This document shows positions 7,688 to 60,868 of a stretch of DNA of 64,000 nt, one piece after another. Position numbers and translations under genes: made by a program. The stretch spans positions 24,260,751 to 24,324,750 of the forward strand of contig NC_036460.1 of the NCBI RefSeq assembly GCF_002775205.1, in the 5' to 3' direction. The notes beneath the pieces were generated by a model. It saw only the letters and a list, made by a program, of their open reading frames with translations, had not been told where the DNA came from and did not search any database. This stretch comes from Xiphophorus maculatus (taxonomy: Eukaryota; Chordata; Actinopteri; Cyprinodontiformes; Poeciliidae). Every line of letters begins with the position of its first letter. The stretch's first letter is position 1.

Positions 7688-7689
7688 CT

Positions 7690-22495: not shown

Positions 22496-22507
22496 GTACA
22501 AGACCTA
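22470..22507. repeat. Perfect 15-bp inverted repeat at a transposon junction
   Basis: TAGGTCTTGTACTGA (22470-22484) is reverse-complemented at 22493-22507, around an 8-nt loop. It sits where BEL/Pao coding sequence ends and Tc1 sequence begins. Confidence 0.8.
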
Positions 22508-23465
22508 GGATGGTATGAGGGCCCGACGTCCACAGATGGGGGTTGTGCTCACAGCCCAACACCGTGCAGGACGCTTGGCATTTGCCAGAGAACACCAGGA
22601 TTGGCAAATTCGCCACTGGCGCCTTGTGCTCTTCACAGATGAAAGCAGGTTCACACTGAGCATGTGACAGACGTGACAGAGTCTGGAGACACCGTGGAGA
22701 GCGGTCTGCTGCCTGCAACATCCTTCAGCATGACCGGTTTGGCAGTGGGTCAGTAATGGTGTGGGGTGGCATTTCTTTGGAGGGCCGCACAGCCCTCCAT
22801 GTGCTCGCCAGAGGTAGCCTGACTGCCATTAGGTACCGAGATGAGATCCTCAGACCCCTTGTGAGACCATATGCTGGTGCGGTTGGCCCTGGGTTCCTCC
22901 TAATGCAGGACAATGCTAGACCTCATGTGGCTGGAGTGTGTCAGCAGTTCCTGCAAGATGAAGGCATTGAAGCTATGGACTGGCCAGCCCGTTCCCCAGA
23001 CCTGAATCCGATTGAGCACATCTGGGACATCATGTCTCGCTCCATCCACCAACGTCACGTTGCACCACAGACTGTCCAGGAGTTGGCGGATGCTTTAGTC
23101 CAGGTCTGGGAGGAGATCCCTCAGGAGACCATCCGCCACCTCATCAGGAGCATGCCCAGGCGTTGTAGGGAGGTCATACAGGCACGTGGAGGCCACACAC
23201 AATACTGAGCTTCATTTTGACTTGTTTTAAGGACATTACATTAAAGCTGGATCAGCGTGTAGTGTTAGTTCACTTTAATTTTGTGTGTGGCTCCAAATCC
23301 AGGCCTCCATTGGTTAATAAATTTGATTTCCATTGATGATTTTTTTGTGATGTTGTTGTCAGCACATTCAACTTTGTACAGAACAAAGTATTCAATGAGA
23401 ATATTTCTTTCATTCAGATCTAGGATGTGTTATTTGAGTGTTCCCTTTATTTTTTTTGAGCAGTG
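22508..23465 (+). mobile_element. 5'-truncated Tc1-like transposon (DD34E)
   Basis: Encodes the catalytic half of a Tc1-family transposase. The first Asp is in VLFTDESRF (GAT 22638-22640), the second in LLMQDNARPH (GAC 22909-22911) and the Glu in NPIEHIWD (GAG 23014-23016). Thirty-four residues separate the last two, the DD34E spacing. The frame from 22756 to the stop at 23208 is open (150 codons), but a frameshift between the first Asp block and the next segment (near 22655) breaks it. The DNA-binding half and left terminal repeat are missing. The right end (TTCCCTTTATTTTTTTTGAG, then CAGTG at 23461-23465) looks like an intact Tc1 terminal repeat next to TA. Inserted into or fused with the BEL/Pao relic. 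Confidence 0.88.
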
Positions 23466-40300: not shown

Positions 40301-43300
40301 CGTTTTATTTATTGTTTTTGGCTGTGTTTTATTTCGGATGTTTAAAATACCTTTGTTACAAAATTAATGTTTCTTGGTTTTTGAGAGAGTAAATTTACAT
40401 CATGATGACATTTTCAATATATTACCGGTACTTCAAAATGACAATATTATTGCTTATCGCAATAATTACTGGGACAATTTATTGTGACAGGCCTACTTAT
40501 AAAAATGAAAGGCTCATTTCTGGCATTTTAATGATAAATTTAAGTTATTCCTTCACCACAGTGAGATGGTGGTACAATAAACACTTTTAATGAATTTTCA
40601 TATCAGGTTTTCTGAAGCGTTCCCGGTAATAAATCTTAAGTCCACAAATATTCAGAAATGTTGAGGTCAAGAGTCTTAATTTCAGCCTTTTTTCCCTCTG
40701 TTTTAAAATCTCTCTTTTTCTAAAAGTTTGCAGCAGATTGCCAAGCGGCCTGGGTTTCAGACCAGGAACAGCTGCACTGATGACTGTAGCCGCGGCTCTA
40801 ACATTGAGCCATGTCCTAAAACCAGCTTTGATACAAGTTTAGGATTATTCTCTTGTTAAACACATAATTGAGTCCAAATTTAACTATCTGTTAATTTCAG
40901 GTGAAGATAAAAATTGAGCAGGTAGTTTTTTTTTCTTGTTTGTTATTGTGCTATGCACCAGTACAACGGCAGTATGCACAATAGCTTAAATGTGTTAAAT
41001 GAGTTTAAACACATACAAATGGATACCTTCCATTTTTGCCAAATCGCACATCTCTTTTAATAATTTATTTGAAAATTACCTCCTTCAAGTCTGCTGTTTA
41101 TCATTGTGACTAAATAGCGTAATCGTTGAGACAGTACAAGTTTTCTCCATGAAATAATTGGGAGATTTTAGGTGGCTTTTTCATTTGATGAAAAACTCAC
41201 ACCTTTTGCTATTTGTATGTAAATTTCACCTTAGGAAAATCCCAGTTCAAGTAAAGGATTACTGGTAAGACGATGAATGAAATTCATACACGTAATGGGA
41301 ATATGCACAGAAATTGTAGCTGTGCTGTTATTGGCAGCATCTTGCAGCTGTGAAACAAAAGTAGTTCTAAAATTAGGTCAGATTTTTAAAAAAACATTCT
41401 GTAGTTTCAGGATCCTGTTTTATTCGTGATTTCAGTACCTGACTGTCACCAAACTGCCCGCTTAAAAACCCTTTTTAGAAAAAAAAAAACCTTTCTTATC
41501 TAACAACTATCCACAAAATTTCAGTGGTGATGCGAAGAAAATGTTTCCGTTACATAATTAGATACTGTACATGTGCAATTACTGTTTAAACTTAATTACG
41601 TAAAATCCCTTGAAAAGCCCTTGTGAATGGAAAATGTGAAATAATTACGGTATTTTGGGGGCAGTTTTGTCATAAAATTGACTGTTAGAAACTGTTGGGT
41701 TTCCAACATCTTCCACAAATAAAAATCTAAAAGGTGTGCCATGCCTTTTTATGCAACCCCTTTTACTTTGATGCCCCTAAATCTGCTACTTATTCCATTT
41801 AAAAGTCACCCAATTAGTAAATGGAGTCCACCTGTGTGTTATTTAAGTTTAGTAAAAATCTCTGACAAATTATATAAATTTCTCTGTATTTTTCTAGCCT
41901 TTTACTTAACTTAATATATTTCCCTTCAACTTAATAGTTGTGCATCACCTTGTTTGACAGATGTTGGTACAATTAGCATCGAGGTTTGTGGTTGTAATTG
42001 GACAAACTGTGTTAAAGTCTTGAGGGGGGTGAAGGCAGGTTTACACAGTTCCTGTGTCCAGTGATTTCTATTAATTTACAACTTTTTAAAAATATTCCTG
42101 AGTGACTAAATGGGTGTTTAGATTCAGGATTTTTTTCCCCCCTTTTGTGTGCAAGCACAACCAAAACAGGAGAGGGAAAAACAGCCAAAACAAAACAAAA
42201 CAAAACAAAAAAAAATATTCCGTCTCTACAGGGAGAAATATTCAACTCATCTCACACTTTTGATCAGCTCAACTGTCCGAGGCTAAAACTCCAGCAAAAT
42301 GCCTCACCTTTGAAACCGCGTGTGGAAACCCTAAGAACAGGCGTAGAGCTAGAGGTGACTTTCACTTCTGTTCCTGTTTGCGGCCGTGATTGCTTTGATT
42401 TCATCATGCTTCACATTTCCAAACTTGCTTAACACAGTGGTCACTAGCATTACTCCCTGCCTGATGGTAATATTGAGCTTTTTTTGTGAGGAGGTAAAAA
42501 AGTCAGAATACATTTTTAAAAAAGCCAGAGAGCGCCACACACACGCCTTTGGACGGCTGCATCACGGGAAGCAGAGCAGCTGTGATGTCATTCGGGAAGT
42601 GTGAATGTGGCTGCATGAACATGAACGTGTGGGCCTGGGAGGATCCAGCTGATGAATAATAAAACCAGATGAGAGATGCCAGTTCTTTAAATATGTTTGC
42701 AGTCAGTTTTTCCCTGCGGTTTCTCAGCTTTCGTGATTCTTTTGTTCACCAGGCTGAACTTGGAGTGACCTCTTCCTGCAAAACACCGTCGTTGGGGTTA
42801 TTTTTATCCCACCTGTTGTTGTTGCTGAGAAACCAAGCCTCTTCTTCATCTTGTTTTCTCTCTGTGCTGCTGCCATTTCAGGATATAGGCAAACAAGTCC
42901 GGGGCTACAAGAATCGATACATGAAGATCGATAAGCCTCCCACGTGTAAATTGGACGAGGGGACGTATCGCCTCGTGAGCGAACCGGAGGGGGAGATCAA
43001 ACCTGAGGTGTGTCTCTTTGCGTGTGGATAAGTCATGTTCATAAAGCATAATTTAGACTGGGTCATGGTCTATGCAGTAAAAATTATGTCAAACATCTTG
43101 GGGAAACTCTTTGAGCATTCTCAACCTGAAACATTGAAAATTGTTTAAAACTGTTAGATTTTAAACAATTAAAAACAGATCACTTGTGATCTGTTTTTTT
43201 TTTTTTTTTTACTTATTTATGTCTTTATAAGATTCTCCCAATCAGTGGGATCATTTTGTACCTCTTTGAAAAACATAAACAGTTTTTACCCAGCCTCATT

Positions 43301-46300
43301 TTAGCAGTATTTGAGAAACATATAGAATGTCCATTGCCTTCCTATACAATTCTGCTCGATTCTCATCTCTTCAGTGCTCCATCTGGGCTTTCTGCCATTG
43401 AACTCGATTTGTCCGGTAGAATTTCAGTCGAGCCAATCAGTGAACGGCAGGAGAAGTTGTGACTGCTTGCCGTTTATTTTCTGTGATGTTTTAGCAACGG
43501 CAGTGGAGGAAGTGAACGAAGCCCTTCAGTCCCTGTTTTCCACGCTTCCAAATGCTGAGCGATTGAAGTCGGAGAAAGAGGAACGTTTAATACATTTCAT
43601 AAGATCTCTGCGAACCAAAGAGTAGCACAAGGCGCTGATTGTTATGGTTGCTAAGAAAAGTTTATTGAAAATGATTCATGTGGTGCATAAGAGATTTTAT
43701 CAAGACTGTAGACAAAATTAACGTAATGTTTTACTCTACAGGTTATGTTTTAGAGTTAATACAGTATTTATTATTAAAAAAATGTTTAGATGTTTGTCAG
43801 TTCCATTTTTAATGTGAATGAGCCTACTCTGCTTTTAAATTGATCTGTGACGAGTGACTACCACTTCTGGAGGTTATTATGAACCTGTAGCTACTGTGAG
43901 CCATGATGAGTGTGAGGTGGTGATTCAGTGACACAAAGCATAGACAGCTGCTGAAGATGCAGGAGTTCACGGTACGCACAGGCTGAATGGCAGCTCCAGA
44001 GACACACTTCAGTTTATTGAGAGGTGACCAAAGACCCAGGCCAAAGTACGCCATTTTGTCTTCCAGGTAGGGCTTATGGGAAGCTGGCGGACCAAAGTTA
44101 AATCTTTGGGATTCAAAGGTTTAGCATCTGAATCCCAAACTTGGATACTTTTCTCTGTTCGAAAGGTTCCAAAAAACAGTTAAGTCAAATGAAATAAGTC
44201 CAAATTCTGTGGAAAATCCTTGACTTTAAACTTCGAAGAGAGACGTTTGATAGAACTTCAGATAAAAATAGATTTTAATCAGCTTAACTAATACTTTCAT
44301 TTACCCTAAAACTATCTCTACATACAAGTTGTGCTGGTTTTATGTTTGTCCAGATGTGTTGCGAAAGATTTCCATTTTCCATTTTTAATTGCATGTGTTT
44401 GGTATTTTGTTTTGATCAACATTTCCGCAGACTTTCTGAAGGCCTTTCATTTGGCTGCCTTGCACCTCTTGGTTGACGTGGAGAAAATAGTCATTACCTT
44501 ACAAAAACCTTTAGGTTTTGTGTCTCACGGCTACTAAACCATGTTTGTGTCTCATTAAAGGAGCTGAAGTTCACGCTCGCTGTGACCAAGATGAAAGGCT
44601 ACTTTGAAGCTTTCTTTGAGGAGCGGCCTCCTTTCAAACTGTCTCTAATAGAGATTAACACGGACGAGACTGTCTGGTCTGCCACCATCAGAGAAGGTGC
44701 CAGCGTGTTTATTCTCCTGCTAACATGTTTATGATGCTACACTGGCTTGAAAAAAAAATCTTTATTCTTCCATTTCAAATAGTAGCGTTAAATTGTGCCT
44801 CAAAATCTGGATCACATTTAATATCCATGTTGTGTTTTTTAAACTTTATAATAGAAATGCTTCCCAATTTATAGGATATTTTTGATAACATTGGTTGTGT
44901 AACAATGTAAATCGATATGTTTAGTAGAGTTATTAAAATCAGAATTCGGTTACTCCATTCAGTGTATCGGTAGGTGGAGCATAATCAACACATTTTGATC
45001 ATATCACAGCGATCTGTTAGGATTTAGGTGGAATTAATTGTATTCGTCAATATTTAATCACATGGGAGTCCGATAGCTCCTCGTGTCGTTTTGTTGAAAG
45101 CCGGTTTCGGCCGTCTGCTGAGATTTATAGTGGATGTTTTACTTTGATTATATTCTGTGTCGTGTGATTGATGTCCGTTTTTTTTTTTTTTTTTTTCTTT
45201 CAGGCGACTGTGTGGACAACTCAGAAAAAAAGCCAAGGAAAAGGACAATCTGTACGCTCCTTATTCGGTCTTCGGTGGGAGACAGATATTCCTTCGTGCT
45301 TTTGGCCTCTGCAGTTTGACTCGAATCAATCTGTTTCTTGCAGCTGGCAGACAGGGAAGCAGCAGCCACTCGGAAGAAGAAACGGCCTGTAAAAGACCAA
45401 AGTGGCACGACGAGTCAGGTGAATCATCATCCGTTTAATTGGATTACATTGAATTCAGTTTAATTAATGTGGCTCCGATTCAAAACAGATTATATACAGA
45501 AGTATGTGATCAGCTCAGTCTAATCATATTGAAATATTATCAGTTGCATATGTTCCAGTGCTAGAAATTAATGTTGACAAGCCGACTATTTAAGATTTCT
45601 AAAGAAACATAGCTTACTGTCCCACAACAGTGGAGAGTTGGTTGCATTGAGTTTAATTTTGATTTGATCCCTTATAATGAACATGCTGGGACTTTAGAGA
45701 ACTGAAGTGAATAGAGACACTGGTTTAGGAAAACTTTTTACATAAAAGAAAAAGTAAATAGTCAATAGCAGCTCCTTTAGTGGCTTCATCTAGAAGAACA
45801 ACACATCTAAATAATGAGCTGTGAGATAATTGTAAAATCCATGGGATGAAAAACAGAGTAGGTATTGCTGGTCGTGCCAATAGCTTCTTTAATTGCTTTG
45901 TCTAGGAGATGAACAGACGTCTCACTGCAACTTGCAGGATAAGCTGAAGGCTTTTAGCTAAACTTTTTAGGTTTCTTTATGGTAAAATGAACAACAGTTC
46001 TACCTGGTACTGTCGGGGATAAGATATTCTTCATTTTAGTAATTTTGTGAAGGTGAAAAAAAAAATCCTGAAAACCTGCTAAACATGGGATTACATTGTG
46101 TAAAACGAGCATATCCAAAACATCTGAGGTTAAAATAAATAGCTTTTTTTTATTGCGTTTTTTTTTTTTTTTTTCTCAGATGGAGTGAAAGCAGGGAAGA
46201 CTCAGGGTCAGGACTTGTCAGAGAAGCAGCTCCTGAAGATCGCCCGTCAACTTGGAAAAGAGTGGAAGGAGGTGGCCATCTTTCTGGGCATAGAGAGTAA

Positions 46301-47261
46301 ATATGTGGATGACCTCCAGGTTGCGGAAAACTGTGTGAGCATGCAAAAGCTGAAAATGCTGTTGGAGTGGAAAAAAAGGCAATCAGGAAAAGCTACAGCA
46401 TACCACCTGTTGTACAGTTTGAATGATTTGGACTCCTTGTCGATCGAGGTTCGTAAGGTACTGAAAGGTATGACCAAAGAATACACACATTCTTGTCTTT
46501 TTTCCCCCTTCCTAACATAAAGTCTTTTTTGTGCACAGCTAAAATAGTTCTTGATCAGTAGTTCCTTGAGCTTTCTTAAGGTTTTTGCGATTTGAATGCT
46601 TTTTTACTAACTTTCCTGACCATTATTGCATTTTAGCCAACTTCACCAAGCCTGTGCCAGAGGCCAGATAGATATTTTTTTCTTTTTTTTTGTAGCTATA
46701 GTTGGGTTGAGCGACAAACCTGACTCTGATTCAAGCAAAATTAAATAACAAAGTATGAACATGATTATTTAAAGTTTTGATTTTCTTGGTTTGGAGCTGA
46801 AGAGGCTCCTCTGCCACAATGTTGTCTGCTGAAAGGTGCTAGCTAACGACGAGCTAACGACCAAAAGCCCATATTTGATTACCAAGCTCTGGGGTGTTTT
46901 AATAAAACTACGACCTACTTACATTAAGAGAAAGAAGGTTGTACTTTCTATCAATGACAAGGAAACTGAAGCATCACGTCATGTGGCACAAAACAGGTAA
47001 ACCCCGCAAGATCAGTCAAACATGTATTAATGGAAGATGAGGCATAGAAAAAAAACCATTAATGAAATGTTTGTGTGGGGCGGTGCAGTTGTCACAAGCA
47101 GGACTTTCAGTCAGTTTTCTTATTGGTTTTGCGTGTCTCTCATTACATTTACTGCTTTATGGAAAAAAAAGAATACTTTTTCAAGACTGAACTGAATCAA
47201 ATTTATATGTTTTTTTTTTCTTCTGTTTTTAGGTATGATGGACAACCGAGCTGATAAGTAA
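25339..47261 (+). CDS. Gene A: acidic region - FIIND (ZU5-UPA) - Death domain protein
   Basis: Coding exons, all with GT-AG ends and consistent phase: 25339-25388, 30813-30844, 35560-35592, 35681-35755, 37182-37214, 37319-37342, 38389-38448, 38533-38579, 39319-39371, 39450-39676, 39762-40015, 42882-43007, 44561-44696, 45204-45251, 45344-45418, 46180-46467, 47233-47261; 1590 bases, about 529 residues. Residues 28-100 are Ser/Glu/Asp-rich low complexity. CCEKCKS (about 109-115) is a short Cys motif. Residues about 135-383 form a FIIND of the NLRP1/CARD8/PIDD type, with catalytic-pair candidates His223 and Ser250 exactly 27 apart, the spacing known in NLRP1 and CARD8. Residues about 433-520 form a Death domain (EWKEVAIFLG, MLLEWKKRQ). 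There is no NACHT, LRR or caspase. AATAAA at 47413-47418. UNC5CL and PIDD1 share ZU5-UPA-Death order, but the FIIND text looks closer to NLRP1. Exon 7 has the weakest acceptor. It may act as a self-cleaving cell-death adaptor (inference). Confidence 0.8.
26205..26425 (+). mobile_element. L2/CR1-type reverse transcriptase relic
   Basis: Decayed frames give SAFNTADHS (compare the SAAFDTVDH box of these LINEs), then INRLKAL, then FGVPQGYVL (compare GVPQGSVLGP). The order and spacing fit an RT core; stops and shifts show it is dead. Confidence 0.55.
27613..27805. mobile_element. Short hAT-like element with 8-bp target duplication
   Basis: The ends CGGTGCTTCTCAAT and ATTGAGAAACGCTG are imperfect inverted repeats. 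The flanks are an identical 8-bp repeat GTTTAGCT (27605-27612 and 27806-27813). Subterminal CTGCATGTTTTAG is repeated inverted as CTAAAACATGCAG. About 193 bases, no transposase. Confidence 0.82.
28167..28380 (-). repeat. Dispersed repeat, copy 1 (inverted relative to 32751-32970)
   Basis: The reverse complement of this segment aligns along its length with 32751-32970; shared blocks include TTCTGGGGGATGTA, GGCAGAGGAA, GGTTACCTAGCAACAA and GCAGCAGCAGTTTCATG. The family name is not known to me; one end (GGGCAATAAA with AT-rich follow-on) resembles common teleost short DNA elements. Confidence 0.75.
29608..29665 (+). mobile_element. Possible LINE reverse-transcriptase YADD fragment
   Basis: A plus frame reads APFYADDVVLLSS, the catalytic box of non-LTR reverse transcriptases (usual form FADDVVLLASS). 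Surrounding similarity is weak, so this may be a small remnant or coincidence. Confidence 0.35.
30118..30147. repeat. Perfect 14-bp hairpin
   Basis: CTTTTTCTAGGTTT (30118-30131) with a 2-nt loop and an exact reverse complement at 30134-30147, in gene A intron 1. Confidence 0.75.
31381..31429. repeat. Perfect 15-bp inverted repeat
   Basis: TGTTCATGGAAACAT (31381-31395) is reverse-complemented at 31415-31429, with a 19-nt loop. A partial extra copy of the ACATGGCAC unit follows at 31431-31438. Confidence 0.7.
32751..32970 (+). repeat. Dispersed repeat, copy 2
   Basis: Inverted partner of 28167-28380 (see that entry). The two copies lie in introns 2 and 1 of gene A, either side of exon 2. Confidence 0.75.
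34033..34780 (-). mobile_element. L2-type LINE, 3' end with RT C-terminus
   Basis: The minus strand encodes about 170 residues of the RT C-terminal region in two frames: 34268-34696 (HAFIFSRIDYCNSVFTGL, SLHWLPVAQRIDFKILLLVY) and then 34195-34401 (NKLPENCKTAETLTSFK). One frameshift separates them; 34697-34780 extends the frame upstream (AFYHLKNISRI). The 3' tail is TTTATTTGTATAGCACATTT next to a TCAA microsatellite at 34034-34053, the tail type of this LINE group. Best-preserved of the three copies here; 5' truncated. Confidence 0.8.
35593..38532 (+). other. Gene A introns around small acidic exons
   Basis: Introns separating exons of 75, 33, 24 and 60 bases. No repeats or RNA genes recognised. 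The exons are so short that the model depends on their shared phase 1, their acidic coding and their splice sites. Confidence 0.5.
39450..40015 (+). CDS. Gene A exons 10-11: ZU5 half of FIIND with autoproteolysis site
   Basis: Exon 10 (39450-39676, 227 bases) gives the YECSVTGLVF start of the ZU5 fold and ends at the FPHSICLA strand. Exon 11 (39762-40015, 254 bases) carries VLHVKDNRP with the candidate catalytic His223, then WNVTSLSPVGPII with Ser250, then FHVYLATNSSSDIK, which aligns with the FHLYLIP strand of NLRP1. In NLRP1 and CARD8 the bond cut is Phe-Ser; here it is Leu249-Ser250. Confidence 0.85.
40016..42881 (+). other. Gene A intron 11
   Basis: A 2.9-kb intron. 40380-40500 resembles a common teleost short repeat (GACAATATTATTGCTTATCG, then TTATTGTGACAGGCC). 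42183-42210 is a CAAAA microsatellite. 42289-42720 is similar to the equivalent intron of gene B (see findings). Confidence 0.55.
42882..44696 (+). CDS. Gene A exons 12-13: UPA half of FIIND
   Basis: Exon 12 (42882-43007) encodes KIDKPPTCKLDEGTYRLVS, matching the KPPP..L..G.RY pattern of NLRP1 after the cleavage site. Exon 13 (44561-44696) encodes the last UPA strands, ending DETVWSATIREG, compare DETLVWEALVKPGD of NLRP1. This part would stay with the Death domain after self-cleavage. Confidence 0.8.
43008..44560 (+). other. Gene A intron 12
   Basis: Non-coding except a hairpin at 43171-43198 (13-bp perfect arms AAAAACAGATCAC, 2-nt loop, then a T run). An open stretch at 43374-43625 has no recognisable domain and no parallel in gene B. 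Confidence 0.5.
43171..43198. repeat. Perfect 13-bp hairpin followed by T run
   Basis: AAAAACAGATCAC, loop TT, GTGATCTGTTTTT, then more T. It resembles an intrinsic terminator in shape only; it lies inside a Pol II intron, so no terminator function is claimed. Confidence 0.7.
44697..46179 (+). other. Gene A introns 13-15
   Basis: Non-coding apart from exons 14 (45204-45251) and 15 (45344-45418), which encode a charged linker between UPA and Death. Long T tracts precede exons 14 and 16 as polypyrimidine tracts. Nothing else recognised. Confidence 0.5.
46180..46467 (+). CDS. Gene A exon 16: Death domain
   Basis: 288-base exon, phase 1 on both sides. The pattern LSEKQLLKIARQLGKEWKEV, then a short helix, then MQKLKMLLEWKKRQ and a final Leu-rich helix is a standard Death domain with the core Trp residues. 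A CARD, as in NLRP1/CARD8, fits less well. The last exon (47233-47261) adds nine residues. Confidence 0.85.
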
Positions 47262-49564: not shown

Positions 49565-52500
49565 ATGACAGGTCAGAGAACCAACTTTGAAATTTAAAGA
49601 TGGTACTTATCCTGTGTTGTATTCAGAATTAGAATAAACTTTATTCGTCAAATTTGTACACAAAAACACGGATTTTGATGTTGGTTACGCTTTTCTCTGA
49701 ATCCGGGGACAAGCGTAAAACATCCAGCCGTCCATTTTCTTTCGGGACGGGTTCTGGTGCTCATCTCCAGCTGCCGGTCCGGGCGAGAGGCGCCATCTGT
49801 GGGATATATTTTTTCGGATCCTTTGAGTTATTTAAGGGCGACTCCACCCAATTTTGCCACTACCTTCAACATTTTTAATCTACTTTAGTTAAAAAAAACT
49901 ATAACACCCAGATTCTTCAAACCTGGTCTAGATTATTGTCAGCTAATAGCAGACTATTTAAAAGCAAGTTTGTGAAACATTGATCTGATTTGTAAAACTT
50001 CTGTAACGGGCTGTTTGAGCCAGTGGCTGATGCATCTGGATCACACTGGATCTGCTCCAGCTGCAACACCTGGACACTTCAAAGGGGGACGAGATTACTC
50101 TATTTTATTGGATAAATAATTTGACCAGAATGAAAAGAAAAGTAAAAACAGGCAAGTGCTTGTTATTAGGACTAGTCCTAGTTAAAACCATGAAAAGAAT
50201 GCTCAACTTCAACCTTTTAAACATTTTTATGTCACAGCTTTTCTTTGGCTTTAGAAATATGAACATCTATTTCTGCTCAGAGTTACATGAGAAGCTCTTC
50301 TCTCTCACTGCAAAAAGAGACATTCGGTTATGAATCACTTGAATTATTATTTTATTTTTTTGTGCATGATTACGTTTTGACACTCATATTGTTTCAGCCA
50401 GTTTAAATTCTCTTACCTCTCCTCCTTTTGGCCAATGTTCAGTTTGTTCCACTGCCTCAGCCCTCGTTAGTGGTTTTGTGATTTCCAGTGGATGCCTGTG
50501 TTGCATACAAAAAGACAATGTTAAGAACTGTTTCCTAAAAATACAAATATTTACTTTACATTTTAATAAAGATGATTTACAAAACTTTCCTTTTTCTTTA
50601 TGCTTGCCTGTTTCGTTATTCAATACCCCGTTTTCTCCTCACCTGTTTCTATTTATCTTTGTTCTGACCAATGGACTTTGAAAGAACAAATTTCTTTTCA
50701 AATTTACTTAAATGTCATCTCGAGGAACTTTACCGAAATCATTCCAATTCAATCATACATGCATTCCATCTGATTCTATCAAAAAAAATGCATTTTATCT
50801 GGATTTGCATATGTCTAAGTATATGCATACATACATCCATGCCCACACTAACTCATATGCTTTAGCCCCAATTTGCATATTTTTTAAAAATTTTTTCTAT
50901 TAGCCAATTCACCGTTGCCACATCTGTTTGCACCACCTGCATTTTGTTTGATGAGCAGTAAATTTTCTTAATCAGATATCATAGATCTATTTAAGAATTA
51001 ATGTACTATTTTTTTAAATCTAATGATTTAAGATTGGAAAATTACCAAAAGTTTAAAAAACATAATTCATCTGGTCCGGCACAACCTTGCTATCGAATGT
51101 TTAAACTAGAAATCTTATAAGTAATAAAATGCATATAAAAACGTTAAAATGGAAATGTCTAGTAATGCAACCTAAGCTACGTCAATGACTTTTTACTGAA
51201 AAAGCCAGTAATCTTCTGATACTGCAAACTGTAACAGCTTTCACTGCAGTACAGTTTTAGGATTAGAGAATAGGATACTCAGTTTTTTTTGACTCAATAA
51301 CAGTATTTAAATAATGATGATGACTATTTTTTCCCATGTCTTTGCAATTACAGGTTTGGTACTTCAGAAAGTGAAATATCGATTTGTGTACAAGGTGTCC
51401 AGACATGTACTTCGTCGTCTCGTGGACCTCCTTTTAAAAGACCATGTTTTGAATGGAGAAGAAGAGGATATAATATGTGAGGGAAGGTATAGTAGGGCCG
51501 ATCAGGCACGTAGTCTCATTGACTATGTGATCAGAAAAGGAGAAAGAGCCAGCACAAGGCTGATTTATCACCTACAGAACATAGACCCAGTTCTTCACAG
51601 TGAGTTGGGTCTGTCCAGTGATCAACCTGGTCTGTCAGGTAAGAGGAAAAAATGTTAGTTTAAAAAGCATAAAAATTGATGGATTTTTCTTTATTAAGAA
51701 GTATAGCATTCTTGTAAACTCAAAAGTTTAGCACAATCAAATCTTCAATCCCTAAATCTTTGAGGGTTTATATAGAAATATTACCTAATAGACACAAGCT
51801 CAGCAAGGCTTTTCGTCCGGTGCGCCAATGCCTGACCCCGGCCGAAGGGCCTTCAGTGCATTGTTGGGCTTTGGGAGATTAACATCTTATGTGTTCTGGT
51901 CCAAATGTTGGGGTGTTTGTAGGTTTTATTCTGGGGTGAGACTGGCGAACGGCTGGGTGGTTCAGGATTATATTCCAGTTCAAGTAGACTTTGTGTCAAA
52001 CTTAGTGTTATTGTACCCTGCCATAAAGTTCCAGTTTGCAGGTGTTACAGCTTGCAGTTATTATTTTCATGTTTAGTGAAACATTGCTCAGCCGAAATGG
52101 ATTATTTATCATTGGAAGGTAACCAAAAAAATAACAAGTTAAACTCAGTTTTTCATATTTAAGCTGATGCTTTGATGAGTAGCTCTTTGTCTTACATGGA
52201 TATATGACATTATAAACTGTCTATTTGAGAAAACACTTAAAAGGCATCTCTAGCGGTGCTCCTTTGACATCCACTTTCACTTAAGAAAGAGCAAACCAAT
52301 TCTTTAAACACGGTTGCTCTCCTCATTGTAAGCTGATGTCTTTTATTTCTGTTCTTTTTTTTTTTTTTTGTTATTTGTAACGACAAAACATGTAAAGCTG
52401 AAGCTTAATGCTCTGGTGTGTTGCATGCCTCCACATATATAAATAATCATGGTGGACCACCATTTCTTTTGGTCCCAGTCCAGCCATGACTCGGTCACAG

Positions 52501-55500
52501 GGGTCTGTGACCGAGTCATAAACGATAAATCAATTAGTCGTACAATAAATGAAAACTATCGACATCATTTTAATTATCGGCTTTATCGTTTCTTCCAGCC
52601 TTTTTCTCTTTCTGTTGATGACACTGAATGAAAACAGGCTCAACTCTGTGTGTGACTGTGTGTGATAATCTCACACAGTCAACCCCGCTCTCTTGGAGAA
52701 AAACTGGGCTACAAATCGACACTCTTGTCTTTTTTCTTTCTCCTTTTGAAAACTTGACTTTATTATGACATAGTAACTGCCACAGTCGTTTTCCTCTTCT
52801 ACTGACTGCTGCTGAACACCGTCGCCGCTAAGCAGGAAGGAACCATTTCATGCAGATTCAAAGGAGGGTTCAGTGTAAATTTGAATGTTTGCGTTTTGGT
52901 CTGGGAGTGCTAACATTTATTTGTTATTGATAAAAACAGTTTTAAAAAACACGATAAAGTTTAATTTGTAATTGACAAGGCTCCAGTTTTTTTCTATTTC
53001 CATGAAGAAAAAAAACAAAAACAAAACTATTTTGTGGAGGGCCCCCAGTCGGTCAGGAGTTGTCCTGACTTTTTCCCCCCTTTACCAATGCATGCATCCC
53101 TACCCAGAACCCTCAATGTCTATATTCAACTTCTTAAAGACTCTGTTTATTTTGCTAAAACAGAAAAAAGCTTCAGTTATATATTAATAATCCTACAGGT
53201 AAGAAAAACATGTCCTGAGTCCTTCGTTAGTCCACATTGAATATAGTTGCGAAAAGAAAGTTTTCAACTAACATTCAAGCTATTAAAAAAACTATATTTA
53301 TTTTTTTAGTCCAATTAACTCCATCTGTGCCAACTGTGGAAGACTTCTTGAAAACCATAAGGACTAACCCAGAGGTCAGTAATTAAATTAAGTTATAAAA
53401 TATCCTTAGTTTAATAGATCAGGTTGAACTTTAGCAACACGTTAGTGAATTTAATGGAAGAGAATCATCTTATGCATACCATGTGTGTAAACAAAATTAA
53501 TCAATCTCACATTCAGCAGTTAAAACATTTACACTTTTGTCTCCCTTGGCTCTTTATTCGTCTCTCAGGTCTATCCTGTGACCCAAACTTCCTTGAAGAA
53601 CCGCGTAGCTCTGCTGATCACTAATATCAAGTTTTCTGAGGAATCAATGAACAGAAGGGGAGCAGAGAAAGACGAGGAGAACATGGAGAGACTGCTTTCA
53701 TATCTGGGGTATGAGGTGGTGAAATACACAAACCTCACTGGAAAGGTACTTTATTCTAGATGAGAGACTAAATGAAACAGATTCTCATCTGATTGATTAT
53801 TTAATTTAATAACTGGTGACATGATTTTCTGTCTTCTTTCAGGCGATTGATGAGGCTTTAATTGACTTCACTAAACATCCCAAACTAAAACACACTGACA
53901 GTGTGTTTGTGGTTCTCATGTCTCATGGGAAGCTGGGGAAAATTCTTGGGGTTGACTGGAAAGAGGACAAACCAGATGAATTTCCAATCAACAACATTTT
54001 CAAACACTTGGGCTCCAAGAGTTGTCCAGAGCTAAGAGATAAACCAAAGGTCATCATCATTCAGGCCTGCAGAGGAGGTGATTCAAATCTGCTGCTGCAG
54101 ATACTAAAGCTCACTGTGAGTTAATATAATGGTCTCACCTGTTTGCCTTTTTTATGCTTCAGGACACAGTGCAGGTTATGTTCTACAATCTGAGAACCAT
54201 GCAGCAGACATGCTTCATCATTTAATTTTGGAAAAAGACTTCATTTACCTTTCATCTTGTATTCCTGGTGGGTTGAAAGCGACACTTTAGATGAACTTAT
54301 TGTAGTGGTTGTAACTTCATTGCTTTTTATTCCCTGCTCATCTTCCTTCAGACAATGTGTCGTACAGACAACGAGATCGTGGGTCTCTCCTCATCCAGAA
54401 CATTGTGGAGGTTTTCAGTCCAGAGTCGTATCAGGAAGATATTTATGGACTTTTTGAGAAGATAGAAATGGTAAGCAAGAAATGTTGAGTGTGAGTTTAA
54501 AAAATATATATATATATTTTTAAAATATTAGCTTAAATATAATCACTACAGATAAGCAGAAAAATAGCTTGTTACTGATTGATGCTGATTTAATCTTACA
54601 ATCTTTTTTTAATTGTTTCGTCCCAACAGGAGACACAACAATACTCTTTTGATCAACAAATGATGTCAGAGATGACTAGAAACACACTGACAAAGCATTT
54701 TTACCCCTTAACAGGAATCAGGTAAGGTGCATCTTGTTGAAACTCCTACTTTATCAACAACTCGCTTCAATCCTAGGCTTAGAAAAATGCCCAGTAATTA
54801 GATTAATATGGTTAAAATGATATATCCTATTTTACTTACCTTCAACATCATGCAACATGTTTATTTGTCTTTTTAAAAAAATATGTAATTAAAGAACAGC
54901 TTCACATTAGCTGCATTTCTATAATTTGCAATTGCAGTGTTTCAGTTAAATAAGAAATTAAATTAAAATCGCATGTGAATAAGCTTGTTCAAGTGATAAG
55001 TCAGTAGAAATCACAGCAGTGACGAATGTAAACGGTTCCATTAGATATATTAGTATTTCAGCCATGCCGCTAGCGCTCATCATCTATCAGAGGTCTCACT
55101 CAGGCGTTGCAATGAGAAATACTTGGGAGTAACTTTGCATGCAGCGTTTTGGGGAAATTGTAGTCTGAAGTTTTACAGAAGATGGATTCAACGTGTTTGA
55201 ACGACACAACTTCTTATGAACAGTGCGATGCAGTGAGATCTCTGGTGGAGCACGTCGTCCTAAAATGCCCCCAAAACAAATCTACTACTATTTCCTGTCC
55301 TAGAAACTGAACTTGAAGTGGGATTATTTCAGTGCTTTTGTAAAACTAGAAAATACAGCTGTCGACAAAATGAAGTTGTTTCAAAGTAGTGGATTTTACA
55401 AATACATGCTTTTAAGCTTGTATTTATAATTGCTTAAATTTACTTAATACGAGTCTGACTCAAAATATAGTAAAATATATCAAAATTTTAATATACTCAC

Positions 55501-58500
55501 TACACTTTTTCCACTGGGGTTGTGTCTTTATCTTTCAGAAAAATGAGTGTCTTGGTGAAGGAAGACAAAGGTAAGGTAATTTTCAGTCACTCCTTCTTTG
55601 TGTCCTTTTAGCTGCTCATCTTCTTTCATCAGAGGGCAAATGCTTTTCTTCATCTAAACTACAGAACTTACTAACATTTATAATAAATCGTTTTTTTTTT
55701 TTGCAATACTCTGCCTCTCGCTTCACTTCTTTCTACATAATTTAGAAATGGCTCTAGTCTATCTGCTCTGTCATGACAACACACTAGATTAACACAAATT
55801 GTGATTGTATTGTGCAGCTTTACTGATGGCTTAAGCAAAAATACAGTATAACAGCTTTAATTGAGATTTAACAGAGATTCTTTATTATTGGGGTGATCAC
55901 ATATACTTTTCTTGAAATATTTAATTTTTTTTCTAATGTTGAAAACGTATAATAATTGCATCTTATTTGTATAGACACAGTTACAGATGCATTCTCAGAA
56001 AGTGAGGGCTGTAGCTATGGTAAGCACAAATATCACATCACTTTGAAGGTTTAATGCTTGGATTAGATTAAACTATTTAATTGTCTGCTACATGTCAATT
56101 TATTGAACAAACAGGAACATCCACTAAGGTCAGCTCACACGAGAAGGAGGAGCAGGAGGAGCGAGAGGAGGATGAAGAAGATGAGCAGGAGGAGGAAGAT
56201 GAAGAGTCTGGTGAGAAACACACTTTAAACTACCTGATCACACCATTGGAACACATTCCTCATTTGTGGTGCCTAATGGGAAGTTTTAAAACCAGTTTGA
56301 AGTTATTGTGGGTTATAATAACGCTTCTGATATATTTTTTTCTTCCTTTTCCTCCAATGTGGTGAAGAGACGAGCAGCAAATCATGTGATCAAGCAGGAT
56401 GTTTAACCTGCCGCTTGGCTGCAGTCAAACTTAGTACATATAGGCAGATGGGCTTGTGCCCGACCCAAAAAACAAAACAAAACAAACCATCAAATGGAAA
56501 ACAAAAATGAAAAATTTGTTTTTGCACGTTTTCACTGGTATTTTGTATACTTGCACAAAAATCTGTTTGGTACCGTCACTGAATACATTTTTATATGCAT
56601 TTGTCTATATGTGTTTTTCTGAAATATAAATCCAAACTAAAACAAATTAACAAGCAAAATTGTTTGCAAACTTTTTCTTTAACAAACTCAAATTCTTTGA
56701 CAGCATAAGGAAGTCCCTAGCGGTTTCTTTTTGTTGCAGAAATAGACAGCCAAACTAAACCGATTCATTTTGATCATAGTGATTTCTACAGGTCATAAAA
56801 CAAACCAAAGTAGATTTTGCTCATCCAATGATATAATGTTTGTAGATAAGACAATTAGGGCCACTGGAACGTTTAGTTTCTTTTTTTGTTTTCAGTGGCT
56901 CTAAACCTCTTCTGTATCATCTGAACTTTTTCTAAAGGATCACTGCTTGGTTTTAAAAAAAAAATGTTTATTTTTACAGCTCACACATTCAAGTTCTGCT
57001 GTGAAAAATGTAAAAGCATCACTCAGGTGAGGTCTGAAACCTGATTGTAATTTCACTCCAACTTGCAAATAAATTAAGAAGCCTAATTTTTCCCTCTCTC
57101 ATCCATCTTTATTTTACTGTTAATATTTATAATTGTGCAAATAAATTACTGGATGTTCTCTCCACAGACCCACGGCACAAAGCTTGTTACTCCCCAGAGG
57201 ATTTCAAACGGACGTTTCCAGTGAGTGAGACACACCGTCTATGCGGTAGAAATGTACCCGTTAATCAGTGCCGTCACTCACACTGTGTGTCTGTGTTTAA
57301 AGAATGCAGCTGGAAGGAGAAGGCTCATACGAGTGTTCGGTCACCGGTCTGGTTTTTGAAGCAAGCGAGTCGGTTCTGGTGCGGTATTCGGTCTTATCCT
57401 GGTCCAAGTTTGGCTCGTTCTTACCCAACTCCTGGAAATTTGCTGGACCAATCTTCGACATCGACGCTGTCAACAAGGAGGCGTCTGTGCTCACATCCAT
57501 CCACCTCCCCCACTCTGTTTGCTTAGGCCGTAAGAGCAATTAATGTCTTTAATATTGAGCATCTTCTAAAAGAGTCGCCATAAAACTTTCATGTCTGATA
57601 TTTTCTAGAGACTCTTGACAATGCCGTGTCATTCAAGATCTTGCATGTTGTCGATGAGGATTTCAGTGAGGCTTTCATTGAGCCACCTTCAGGCTACTCA
57701 GGTAGCCACGTTAAGTGGAGCGTGAGGTCCCTGTCCCCCGTGTGTCCCATCATTCCAGCTGATGAACAGGCTGAATATCATGGCATGGTTATGATCTACA
57801 AACAGATGAACACCAACAACATCTTCCATGTGTACCTGGTCCTAAATAACGTCTCTGCCATTAAAGTAGGTATTATTTACCTTGGTATCGTTATGGAAAC
57901 TGAGTGATTTCTGTGAAGTTTTAACTGACATTGGTTTTGTGATTTTTGCTGTTTACTGACTGAAGGGAAAACTGTTTTTGTTTTTTAAAGTCAGACACTT
58001 TAGAGTAGGCGTGTTTTCAACATGTAGCCTTATAGCATTAACTTTTCTCTCTGACAGTTTTCAATACAGAGTAAATATTTCACTAATTTCCCCCCAAACA
58101 AACACAATTGTTTCTAATTATAAGAAGCAATTAGTCTATTTGAAGTTATTTGTTTCCACTAGTGTGCACACAAAAACAAACTCCATCCTCACACAGAGAA
58201 ATATTCCATTCATGAAATAATGATCATTGCAGACATGAAATCAGCTCAAATGTTCATGATTAAAACTCCAGCAAAATGCCTCACTTTTGAAACCGTGAGG
58301 AAACAGTAAGAACAGAATTAGAGCCCAAAGTAACTTTCACTTCTGCCCGTGTTTGCTTCCATTGTGGTTTTGACATTATCACGGTTCGCATTTCTATTGT
58401 TTTATATCACCGTGGTCACTGCTTTTATTAGATACATGAATATCTGATAGTAACATTGAGCAGGAGGAAATAAGTGAATGTTTATATTTAAAACCAACCA

Positions 58501-60868
58501 AAAATCAGCCGTGATGCCATTCTGGAAGTGTGACTGTGGTTGCAGGAACATGTGGGTCTGGGAGGATCCAGCTGGTGAATAACGACACAAAATGAAAGAT
58601 GCCAGTTCTTTAAATATGTTGCAGTTAGTTTTCCCATTTCTGCCGTCATCGTGTTTTCATTTTAATTCTCCTGGTTGTTGTTTCCAGGAACCCGATTAAC
58701 CCTCTACTTTGTTTTTCATCCTGCTTTACTGTTTACATTCAGGATGTATGCGAACAGGTTCAGAGCTACCAAAATAAATACGTCAGGGTGACTAAATCCT
58801 CCATGTGCAGACTGGTTGAGGGGATATTTCGCTTTTCGAGTGAGCCGGTGGGAGTGGTCAGACCTCAGGTGTGCATACCTCCATGTTCATGAATTATGAG
58901 CGTCATTAGGATTGGCTCATGCTCCCAAGTGTAAAATTACTAAAGCATCAAGTTGTGTGCAGGACTTTTGTGGAACTAGACGATCTTGGAATATCTTTTG
59001 TCAATATATCTGCAGGACTTATTTTTATCTTGCTGTAACTTTTGTTACAACAGCAAGAATAAATTTCCCTGTCTTTTTGCAGGAGCTGGAATTTACACTA
59101 GCTGAGATAGCGGTAAAAGGCTTTTTCGAGGTCTTCTTTGACAAGCAGCCTCCGTTTGAATGGTCTCTACGAAAGAGGAGAACGGATGAGGTCGTCTGGT
59201 CTGCCGCCATCAGAGCAGGTACCAGTGAATTTAACTAAAGAGGAGTTCCACACTTTGACATTGAAAGGAATCTTACAGGACTGTGGTTTATGACTTATTT
59301 TTTGACTTATTCTGTTAAATACATTAGTATATTTTCCAGGACATATTTATGTCGTATTCATTATCTTGTTAACAATACAGACAGCACATGTAACTACATT
59401 CTTTATTTTTAAGTAACTTAAAATGTGGTGTTTATTGCCACAGCTCCTCTGATGCTAGTTTACTTGTTTTACCCTTGAAATGGGTATTTGTCATTTTTCT
59501 ATTTGTCCATTGCTGCTAAAGCAATTTTATCAACATACAATTAAAAAAAAACAAAAGTTACAAAAATAAATCTCATCAAGTTTTACAAAAATAAACTTAA
59601 TCAATTTCTACTTGTATGTCCCTTTTTTGATCTACATGACATTTTACATCTGACCAATGATTTCATCCCTCCTAAAAATGTCTTAAGTTTCTACTTTTTA
59701 CTCATATTTCATTGTGGCCAAAAGGGTTACCAATCACACAGCAACGTTAAATTGCCCATAGGGATTTTATGCTGGTTTGTAGTTTGATTTTTTTAGAACA
59801 TGGATGATGTCAGTCATTTTCTTTTCTTTTTCTTTTTCTCCAGACGACTGGCAAGCTGCATTAAAAGAAAACCCAAGGAAAAGAGCCAGATGTATGCTTC
59901 TGTTTAGCTTTTAGTTAGACAGATTTTCCATCATATTTTTCAGGTTTTGTCGTGTTACTAACATTCACATCTCTGTCCCACAGGTGACGGTGAGAGTGTC
60001 CTTACGGTGTTCATCTTTTGATGACTTACTGGACAAAAGATGGATTTAGTTACTAAACAAAGATTTTCTAGTTAACTTGTGTCATTTTTCCAGATGAATT
60101 GAGAGCAAAGAGCCATCGGGGTCAGGACCTGTCAGAGAAGCAGCTCCTGCGGGTCGCCAGTAAGTTTGGGTCAGAGTGGAAGGAGGCAGCCATCTACTTA
60201 GACTTACTGAGCAAAGATCTGGATGACATCCTGGAGAAAGAGAATGATGTGACCATGCAGAAGCATAGGATGCTGGTAATGTGGAAGAACAGAAGGAGGC
60301 AAGGAGAAGCTACTGCGTCTGCCCTGTTGGAAAGTTTGAAAGATATGGATAAGTTGTCCACGTAAGTTCGCGACATTCTGCAAGGTACGGTCTACAGATT
60401 TCCTCCACTACAGTTTTCTAAAGGTTTCAAAGTTGTACTTTAAACTTTGACTTATTTATTATTAGTGTTGAGGCATTTAATCTGTTTGCAGCAATGCATT
60501 GTGCAAAGTCTGCTCAAAAATTCATAATATTCCAGTGGTAAATTATTGTTGCTGTAATATGATGAATTATTATGCTGCCATGTTTACAGCTTTCCCAGTG
60601 TTGCCCTCCTTCTCTGCCCCCTCTCATTTACTTTAGCCTAATATTGGATTATTTATCTATCCAATTCATACTTTTGTTGTTTATTCCTCCAGCAAAAGTC
60701 CAAGTCAGTGTACAAAATATTTAACAAATGTCCACAAAATATTGAAAAGAGACATGTATCTTTTGCCCCTCCCAGCAGCTAAAGCCAAATGATTAAATGT
60801 TGTTTTCTTTTCTGTTGCGTCTGCTTTCAGATTTAATGACGGCAGACGATGAACGCATGGACGAATAA
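49565..60868 (+). CDS. Gene B: CARD - caspase-1-like - acidic linker - FIIND - Death fusion
   Basis: Coding exons: 49565-49571, 51354-51638, 53310-53374, 53569-53745, 53843-54077, 54163-54267, 54352-54470, 54630-54721, 55539-55570, 55975-56019, 56115-56210, 56980-57026, 57168-57220, 57303-57529, 57609-57865, 58743-58868, 59083-59218, 59844-59891, possibly 59984-59989, 60094-60365. All ends are GT-AG and in phase. About 809 residues to an in-frame TAA at 60363-60365; the paralogue-equivalent last exon would be 60831-60868. Domains: CARD 1-95; p20/p10 caspase about 120-361 with His206 and Cys254; acidic linker 385-420; FIIND about 435-701 with candidate His541 and Ser571; Death about 730-809. 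Exons 9, 12-14 and 16-18 have exactly the lengths of gene A exons 2, 8-10 and 12-14. Each half is secure; that they form one transcript rests on phase and splice sites, and two overlapping transcripts (caspase-1, and FIIND-Death from ATG 55543) are possible. AATAAA 61013-61018. Confidence 0.7.
49572..51353 (+). other. Gene B intron 1
   Basis: A 1.8-kb intron after a seven-base coding first exon. Near 49625-49660 is a LINE-tail-like AGAATTAGAATAAACTTTAT stretch. Nothing else recognised. Confidence 0.5.
51354..51638 (+). CDS. Gene B exon 2: CARD
   Basis: With the seven-base first exon (ATG ACA G) this gives MTGLVLQKVKYRFVYKVS onward. The helices RRLVDLLLKDHVLNGEE, ADQARSLIDYVIRKGERAS and the ending LGLSSDQPG match caspase-1 CARDs (VLNKEE, TRALIDSVIPKGAQA, LGLSADQ). 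This indicates a caspase-1-type CARD rather than the PYD of zebrafish caspa/caspb. Confidence 0.88.
51639..53309 (+). other. Gene B intron 2
   Basis: A 1.7-kb intron between the CARD and linker exons. Contains the 15-bp hairpin at 52486-52519, then AT-rich text with ACGATAAATCAATTAGTCG (52522-52540) and its partial complement near 52575-52590, suggestive of an old short DNA element. Confidence 0.5.
52486..52519. repeat. Perfect 15-bp hairpin, 4-nt loop
   Basis: ATGACTCGGTCACAG (52486-52500), loop GGGT, and the exact reverse complement at 52505-52519. GC-richer than its surroundings. Confidence 0.8.
53569..54077 (+). CDS. Gene B exons 4-5: caspase large subunit (p20)
   Basis: NRRGAEKDEENM aligns with the S1-pocket Arg region RRTGAEVD of caspase-1. 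VVLMSHGKLGKILG carries the catalytic His (206) and IIIQACRGG the catalytic Cys (254). All residues needed for cysteine-protease activity are present. Exon 3 (53310-53374) supplies the CARD-to-protease linker. Confidence 0.9.
54163..54721 (+). CDS. Gene B exons 6-8: caspase small subunit (p10)
   Basis: Exon 6 gives a short interdomain linker and EKDFIYLSSCIPD. Exon 7 gives DNVSYRQRDRGSLLIQNI, with the substrate-binding Arg of the DNVSWR motif kept (Trp to Tyr). Exon 8 ends NTLTKHFYPLTGI, matching the natural caspase C-terminus (LTRCFYLFPG). The linker between Cys254 and DFIYL is shorter than in mammalian caspase-1 and offers few Asp processing sites. Confidence 0.88.
54722..55538 (+). other. 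Gene B intron 8, between caspase and FIIND halves
   Basis: 817 bases, donor GTAAGG at 54722 and acceptor TCTTTCAG ending at 55538. ATTAAA-type signals occur near 54889 and 54950, so a short caspase-only mRNA could end here. No CpG-rich promoter is seen, but a weak internal promoter cannot be excluded. No exon resembling gene A exon 1 was found. Confidence 0.5.
55539..56210 (+). CDS. Gene B exons 9-11: acidic linker joining protease to FIIND
   Basis: Exon 9 (55539-55570) is 32 bases, as is gene A exon 2, and similar (LVKEDK versus LVNK). Exon 10 (55975-56019) parallels gene A exon 3. Exon 11 (56115-56210) is a Glu-rich block with EEDEEDEQEEEDEES. Exon 9 holds an ATG (55543) that could start a separate FIIND-Death protein. 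Exons matching gene A exons 5-7 were not found. Confidence 0.7.
56211..56979 (+). other. Gene B intron 11
   Basis: Non-coding, with a CAAAA run at 56466-56486. No counterparts of gene A exons 5-7 recognised. Confidence 0.5.
57303..57865 (+). CDS. Gene B exons 14-15: ZU5 half of FIIND with autoproteolysis site
   Basis: Exon 14 has 227 bases, as in gene A, and starts QMQLEGEGSYECSVTGLVF. Exon 15 (257 bases, one codon longer than gene A) holds ILHVVDEDF with His541 and VRSLSPVCPII with Ser571, 30 residues apart. The bond would be Leu570-Ser571. Confidence 0.85.
57866..58742 (+). other. Gene B intron 15, with paralogue-conserved block
   Basis: 58258-58640 aligns with gene A intron 11 at 42289-42720 (shared CTCCAGCAAAATGCCTCAC, GGGAGGATCCAGCTG and GATGCCAGTTCTTTAAATAT). 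The intron is otherwise unrelated and 2 kb shorter than in gene A. Confidence 0.7.
58743..59218 (+). CDS. Gene B exons 16-17: UPA half of FIIND
   Basis: Exons of 126 and 136 bases, identical in length to gene A. The conserved ends are DEVVWSAAIRAG and the LELTF-like start ELEFTLAEI. The KPP motif is reduced to TKSSMC. Confidence 0.8.
59219..60093 (+). other. Gene B introns 17-19
   Basis: Non-coding apart from exon 18 (59844-59891, 48 bases as in gene A) and a possible six-base exon GTGACG at 59984-59989 bounded by CCCACAG and GTGAGA. Skipping the six bases also keeps the frame. Gene A has a 75-base exon at this point. Confidence 0.45.
60094..60365 (+). CDS. Gene B exon 20: Death domain, ends at early TAA
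   Basis: LSEKQLLRVASKFGSEWKEA, MQKHRMLVMWKNRRR and ALLESLKDMDKLST form a Death domain like gene A. The frame then meets TAA at 60363-60365, where gene A continues for 17 more residues. That TAA lies inside GTAAGT (60362-60367), a consensus splice donor. The older donor, equivalent to gene A, survives at 60385. Confidence 0.82.

Follow-up and report, generated by a model that had tools for sequence, protein, structure and literature searches.

We analyzed a stretch of 64,000 nucleotides from Xiphophorus maculatus (C18:24260751-24324750, hereafter the window) and searched the genome (704.3 Mb, 101 contigs) for relatives of its genes. Two tandem genes on the plus strand are the subject of this report: gene B, a fusion gene modelled from 49565 to 60852, whose product of 813 amino acids contains, in this order, a CARD, a caspase, an acidic linker, a FIIND (ZU5 and UPA) and a Death domain, and, just upstream of it, paralog A (30813..47261; 16 exons modelled), a FIIND-UPA-Death gene in which no caspase was found. 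The window also contains transposon remains with a DDE_3 transposase (22660-23205, plus strand), what we take from its appearance to be a BEL/Pao-type integrase (21209-22828, minus strand), and a minus-strand open frame (7070-7720), perhaps a small membrane protein gene, whose product has a single hydrophobic stretch along with PY-like motifs.

Gene B was modelled as 20 exons forming a single open frame without a stop, all 19 introns being of the GT-AG type and consistent in phase. The start proposed by an earlier reading of the sequence was kept, and the end was moved from 60868 to 60852, where the stop codon of the model ends. Exon 1 (49565..49571, ATGACAG) resembles the ATGGCAG/GT first exon of paralog P, a related caspase gene described below (32 bp, 84%, E 0.006). 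The CARD is encoded by exon 2 (51354..51638) and is linked to the caspase by exon 3 (53310..53374), which aligns to a retrocopy, also described below, at 81% and to paralog P at 72%. Exon 4 (53569..53745) encodes the large caspase subunit, exon 5 (53843..54077) carries His206 and Cys254, exon 6 (54163..54267) is a short interdomain linker, exon 7 (54352..54470) encodes the small subunit, and exon 8 (54630..54721) completes the caspase and ends in a phase-2 donor, CAG/GTAAGG. Beyond intron 8 (54722..55538) follow exon 9 (55539..55570; 32 nt, including an ATG), exon 10 (55975..56019), the acidic linker of exon 11 (56115..56210) and exon 12 (56980..57026), which carries a CCEKCK motif. Exons 13-15 (57168-57220, 57303-57529, 57609-57865) encode the FIIND/ZU5 part, exons 16-17 (58743-58868, 59083-59218) the UPA, exon 18 (59844..59891) a linker and exon 19 (60094..60361) the Death domain. 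The terminal exon 20 (60831..60852) is tentative: by eye it resembles the terminal exons of paralog A and of gene X, a CARD-Death gene presented below, and both of these have coding sequence at the corresponding place beyond exon 19. The last donor, at 60361, is uncertain; if it is unused, an in-frame TAA at 60363-60365 ends the protein in LST, still past the Death domain.

Five Pfam families scored above their gathering thresholds: CARD (residues 6-89, E 7e-16), Peptidase_C14 (131-356, E 1.4e-45), FIIND (PF13553; 450-578, E 1.7e-30), UPA-FIIND (PF23679; 586-698, E 6.5e-20) and Death (733-804, E 1.6e-7). A sixth listed family, MIF4G_like_2, was dropped, its score being under its own gathering cut-off. 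Sequence searches of the PDB matched the front half to caspase-1 (E 4e-47), the middle to NLRP1 and CARD8 (E 4e-12 to 2e-6) and the end, weakly, to the death domains of THOC1, PIDD and ankyrin-2 (E 3e-4 to 1e-3). An AlphaFold model of the Death exon, built from three sequences, was of low confidence (pLDDT 59) and is left out of the argument. The Pfam matches bear out the complete CARD and caspase-1-like protease of the sequence-only reading, and the catalytic His206 and Cys254 stand at the positions it had claimed, with their surrounding sequence kept and the CARD preceding Peptidase_C14. Its placement of the FIIND and Death domains on the same strand and in the same phase as the caspase holds as well, as seen from the 813-residue open frame and the Pfam scan.

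The integrity of this model hinges on the junction between exons 8 and 9. Reading through exon 8 meets a TAA at 54723-54725, and retention of intron 8 would then yield a caspase of 362 amino acids. Any phase-2 donor of the form AG/GTAA reads AGG TAA, however, and thus the TAA behind exon 8 is no sign of a genuine gene end. The donor at 54721 lies at percentile 99.9 of the 3691 plus-strand GT sites and is the second best among the 19 donors of the model; counting both strands, the window contains a single copy of CAGGTAAGG. Intron 8 contains three ATTAAA signals and no AATAAA. Its core (about 54923-55251) is a dispersed repeat, for which the search returned 44 matches including the window itself; 40 of 1504 candidates were scored, and 39 further copies were found among these. 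A unique promoter filling the intron was rejected on account of this repetitive core.

The most direct evidence on the junction comes from a retrocopy on C15. A genome search with the back half of gene B found there matches to exons 9-11 beside Peptidase_C14 and CARD matches on the same strand, the latter two containing stop codons. The locus is intronless: its alignment to the spliced message, which covers exons 3 to 11, has 84% identity over 959 columns, including 47 gap columns, and crosses eight junctions (3/4 to 10/11) without introns, the longest gaps being due to additional exon 6 sequence in the retrocopy. Nine junctions were examined in ungapped windows of 30 nt, each against 200 shuffles. 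Seven of them (3/4, 4/5, 6/7, 7/8, 8/9, 9/10 and 10/11) beat every shuffle, with 25 against a best shuffle of 20 at junction 8/9; junction 5/6 tied (21 and 21), junction 2/3 failed (18 against 19 for the best of its 200 shuffles), and exons 1 and 20 receive no support from the retrocopy. At 8/9 it reads CTTAACAGGAATCAG and then passes directly into the equivalent of exon 9. Intron sequence matched the retrocopy at chance level only (best E 0.054). The genome search found no further retrocopy of this kind, the C15 copy being the sole one. Direct repeats of 84 nt, 92% alike, flank it at positions 6668-6751 and 8011-8094 of the fetched C15 locus; they are members of a dispersed family that has 37 matches across the genome, and it looks as though a mobile element had captured a mosaic message after splicing.

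The mosaic character of that message emerges from exon-by-exon identities to paralog P and gene B, respectively: 93% and 74% in exon 2, 90% and 81% in exon 3, 93% and 94% in exon 4, 93% and 93% in exon 5, 91% and 80% in exon 6, 87% and 96% in exon 7, and 76% (with 29 gap columns) and 86% in exon 8. Exons 9, 10 and 11, compared with gene B only, are 78, 93 and 90% identical. The retrocopy is thus P-like in exons 2, 3 and 6 and gene-B-like in exons 7-11, while exons 4-5 are not assignable to either because B and P are nearly alike there. Either a template switch between two messages produced it or it was copied from an earlier form of gene B, and its parent therefore need not have been gene B in its present form. 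Whichever the origin, the alignment indicates that exons 7-8-9-10-11 of the type seen in the window once stood in one message, and that exons 8-9-10-11 were spliced in a message of gene B or a close relative. The retrocopy ends inside exon 11, with the FIIND and Death domains outside its span, so the join to the FIIND-Death part rests on homology to a paralog.

That paralog is gene A. At the places of exons 9, 12, 13, 14, 16, 17 and 18 of gene B, it has exons of identical length (32, 47, 53, 227, 126, 136 and 48 nt) and phase, including the CCEKCK motif in the 47-nt exon. An acidic exon (35681-35755) precedes the CCEKCK exon in A too, and this links exons 9-11 with the FIIND-Death gene. The 32-nt exon of A and exon 9 agree in length, phase and place but share only a few letters, a slight likeness. 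The exon of A lacks an ATG and is entered through its acceptor in phase 2, which suggests that exon 9 was already internal before the fusion. Paralog A further differs by an additional linker exon and in that several of its exons are acidic; its predicted cleavage position reads L/S, as in B.

Upstream of A, no caspase match better than E 3.4 was found within the window, and the 30 kb before the window gave no match to the fusion protein at E 1. A first exon of A had no candidate under a strict donor rule, and at E 0.01 the plus strand at 21-31 kb yielded only transposase domains. The FIIND matches of the genome (11) fall into seven loci, among which gene B alone has a Peptidase_C14 match upstream on the same strand within 25 kb, in a scan made exon by exon with at least 47 Peptidase_C14 matches, a count that is a lower bound; a second caspase-FIIND gene was rejected on this basis. 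Near a FIIND on C3, a caspase lies 24 kb off on the opposite strand. A cluster of 22 of the 58 CARD matches was seen at C24:12.5-14.2 Mb, perhaps a receptor expansion.

Could the window hold two neighbouring genes, the first an ordinary CARD-caspase that the TAA of 54723-54725 terminates, the second a FIIND-Death gene whose start is either the ATG of exon 9 or a first exon missing from the model? The in-frame stop directly at the exon 8 donor, the three ATTAAA signals inside intron 8 and the ATG of exon 9, which has an A at -3 and hence a fair context, would all suit such an arrangement, and each part stands alone elsewhere, paralog P as a plain caspase that ends in a normal stop and paralog A as a FIIND-Death gene in which no caspase was found. 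Against this, the retrocopy fuses exon 8 to exon 9 exactly, a stop after an AG/GTAA phase-2 donor is expected anyway, and intron 8 has a dispersed repeat as its core and no AATAAA. A conserved gene start at the ATG of exon 9 was rejected as well, the counterpart in A being entered in phase 2 and lacking it, and the retrocopy having none at that position, although another in-frame ATG follows five codons later. Two separate genes are, on this evidence, very improbable. A single locus with two products, in which intron 8 retention or early polyadenylation would give a bare CARD-caspase, splicing would give the fusion, and both would be used, is a possibility that we take more seriously while leaning against it. 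The stop directly behind the donor and the ATTAAA signals are compatible with it, and all that the retrocopy proves is the past existence of the spliced form; but with so strong a donor at 54721, retention should be minor. The bare isoform of 362 residues is accordingly possible. The best reading of the locus is one gene with caspase, FIIND and Death, as had been proposed, with the retrocopy covering exons 8-11 and the exon structure of paralog A assigning exons 9-11 to a FIIND-Death gene. The retrocopy joins exons 8 and 9 at exactly the predicted sites; in standing in for cDNA, it partly answers the earlier suggestion to look for a read joining 54721 to 55539. That the observation goes beyond chance follows from the existence of both the spliced retrocopy and a paralog whose exons match in length.

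The caspase half resembles paralog P, which belongs to a caspase cluster on the opposite strand at a distance of about 270 kb. P is an ordinary CARD-caspase with a normal stop, whose product ends in ...FYHFQGLLHNDH and has neither FIIND nor Death. Identity between B and P is 99.4% (exon 4), 97.9% (intron 4), 97.4% (exon 5) and 98.8% (intron 5). It falls to 74.3% in exon 6 (with 41 gap columns), rises again to 94.0% in intron 6 and stands at 85.5% for exon 7, while introns 3 and 7 and exon 8 share about 77-78%; exons 2, 3, 6, 7 and 8 span 71-87%. The high-identity tract extends over 53569-54351 of the window and corresponds to C18:24039000-24040000 (minus strand). From this pattern, exons and introns 4-5 are read as a recent conversion tract, within or next to which lies exon 6 with its markedly higher divergence (Fisher p 9e-8 in comparison with introns 5 and 6). 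In gene B, exon 6 is shorter than in P by a missing stretch, and one Asp is left in the linker proper. Pairwise dN/dS, which does not distinguish the constrained copy of each pair, was 0.31 for the FIIND of B and A (bootstrap 0.20-0.45), 0.53 for exons 2, 7 and 8 together of B and P (0.34-0.81) and 0.50 for the Death domains of B and A (a point estimate without interval). The intervals of single exons include 1 (CARD 0.23-1.02, exon 7 0.17-1.88, exon 8 0.24-1.86), with which neutrality stays compatible. Taken as wholes, both halves of gene B look maintained by selection.

The next question is whether the FIIND cuts itself. By phmmer alignment, H541, E553 and S571 of gene B correspond to H1186, E1195 and S1213 of NLRP1, the residues named as a triad in the excerpts of PMC9700037. 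The spacing from His to Ser is 30 in gene B, and 27 in paralog A and the four other FIINDs measured in the genome; the two spacings of paralog A (27 and 18) are those of NLRP1, and the FIINDs of C21 and C5 have no Glu at -18 by ungapped count. At the cleavage site itself, both window genes read S-L/S in place of S-F/S. Among the other five FIIND genes, which include one on C24 and four whose sites were read, F/S occurs in three (C21 and two on C3) and L/S in that of C5. The C21 gene (C21:25619666-25620736, plus strand) carries FIIND-UPA-CARD in one intronless frame of 796 amino acids. Adhesion GPCRs cleave at L/S or L/T, and UNC5b is not known to be cleaved. The excerpted text of PMC3210808 gives UNC5b a Leu at the cleavage position, and describes a buried Phe as straining the bond and the F296H substitution as crippling the cleavage of CARD8. 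The claim of a self-cleaving FIIND with candidate catalytic residues is thereby weakened to a likelihood, the NLRP1-aligned H/E/S being present and Leu standing in place of Phe: self-cleavage at Leu570-Ser571 is predicted as likely.

A possible partner for the Death domain is encoded in the caspase-1 cluster of the same chromosome. Gene X (about C18:24034660-24036000, minus strand) has a CARD followed by a Death domain; the latter is 56-57% identical to that of gene B, the best PDB matches of the CARD are caspase-1-type CARDs, and a weak match to RAIDD runs via the Death domain (E 0.003). Gene X is a plausible candidate adaptor for the Death domain of gene B, and the set of FIIND-Death, CARD-Death and CARD-caspase mirrors PIDD1, RAIDD and caspase-2 with inflammatory parts.

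With these elements, a course of events can be proposed. A caspase-1-like gene would have been placed in front of a tandem FIIND-Death copy, its terminal exon then gaining a phase-2 donor and becoming spliced to an internal exon of the FIIND-Death gene. The resulting protein would cut itself at Leu570-Ser571 into a non-covalent pair of CARD-caspase-ZU5 and UPA-Death, in the manner of NLRP1 and CARD8. For these two, functional degradation, in which loss of the N-terminal part sets the C-terminal part free, is described in the excerpts of PMC11760013. Removal or unfolding of the N-terminal part of the gene B protein would similarly free UPA-Death, which would cluster and recruit Death-domain partners, the most plausible being the CARD-Death protein of gene X; this in turn would gather CARD-caspases, P and the intact gene B protein among them. 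The scheme as a whole, in which a single CARD-caspase-acidic linker-ZU5-UPA-Death gene born by fusion makes a self-cut protein whose freed UPA-Death signals through a CARD-Death adaptor, is in our view a little more probable than not. The working mechanism, from the self-cut pair through the clustering of freed UPA-Death to the gathering of CARD-caspases by X, we infer only tentatively and hold somewhat short of probable.

Two other roles for the caspase half have to be weighed against this scheme. The sequence-only reading had proposed that loss of one part or clustering through Death could switch the protease on without a separate adaptor. In such a self-contained switch, clustering through Death or CARD would activate the protein's own caspase by proximity, with the FIIND serving only as a brake. 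The preserved catalytic residues and their neighbouring sequence would fit, as would the presence of Death and CARD on one chain. Yet under the rule known for the FIIND of NLRP1 and CARD8 the N-terminal part is destroyed, here together with the caspase, and a natural adaptor for the Death domain, the CARD-Death gene, lies on the same chromosome, which argues against adaptor-free activation. Caspase-1 is normally cut in the interdomain linker, and the linker of gene B is shorter than that of paralog P. We consider such a switch rather unlikely. Alternatively, the caspase half might be bait, an integrated copy of caspase-1 through which the FIIND sensor would report an attack on caspase-1. Pathogen enzymes do attack the N-terminal part of NLRP1, according to the excerpts of PMC11760013, and the likeness to P of exons and introns 4-5 (97-99%, against 71-87% in exons 2, 3, 6, 7 and 8) looks as if a surface had been kept alike. 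But gene conversion can produce such likeness without this cause, intron 6 (94%) is similar too, the intact catalytic residues speak against a pure decoy, and no attacker is known; this role appears unlikely, a little more so than the self-contained switch. A combination of bait and adaptor, in which a parasite factor destroying the caspase part would release UPA-Death to act through the CARD-Death protein on ordinary CARD-caspases, as a PIDDosome-shaped inflammasome guarding caspase-1, is slightly less probable still. The scheme of a fusion protein signalling through its freed UPA-Death and a CARD-Death adaptor is thus the one that we retain.

Gene B shares features with several known systems. 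NLRP1 shares with it a FIIND (ZU5-UPA) with aligned H/E/S followed by a death-fold domain, but has NACHT-LRR in front and a CARD behind, where gene B has CARD-caspase in front and Death behind. CARD8 likewise has a short N-terminal part, a FIIND and a death-fold domain (phmmer, 7jkq, E 1.1e-6); it ends in a CARD and has no protease, and the C-terminal CARD of the NLRP1/CARD8 type is absent from gene B, whose last domain is Death. PIDD1 has its domains in the order ZU5-UPA-Death, the PDB search ranked its Death domain with the best matches (E 5e-4), and gene X parallels the CARD-Death order of RAIDD in this genome; however, PIDD1 consists of LRR, two ZU5, UPA and Death, whereas gene B lacks LRR, has one ZU5, of the FIIND type, and bears the caspase on its chain. 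The teleost caspase-1-like CARD caspases, represented by P, provide the CARD-caspase order, the active-site residues and a DNA identity of 97-99% in exons 4-5.

To our knowledge, the order caspase-FIIND-Death occurs nowhere else, the modules themselves being known, and we know of no system in which the inflammasome sensor and the caspase that it switches on are not separate proteins. The open-access literature, as represented by the excerpts retrieved, yielded no caspase-FIIND or FIIND-Death protein, and automatic annotation or other papers may have it. Fish FIINDs are described there in NACHT-LRR-FIIND-CARD proteins and beside GBP domains. In a figure legend of PMC4932187, FIIND and CARD appear together with GBP domains in fish. 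The enzyme of zebrafish Gbp3 and Gbp4 is a GTPase and not a caspase, and Gbp4, according to a separate abstract, ends in a CARD and not in Death.

Gene B provides a clean case of exon phase letting two neighbouring immune genes fuse. Its combination of a caspase, a predicted self-cleaving release module and a Death domain in a single protein would make it possible to test whether sensor, bait and effector can be one molecule, and whether the parts of the PIDDosome, ZU5-UPA-Death, CARD-Death and CARD-caspase, were reused for inflammation in fish.
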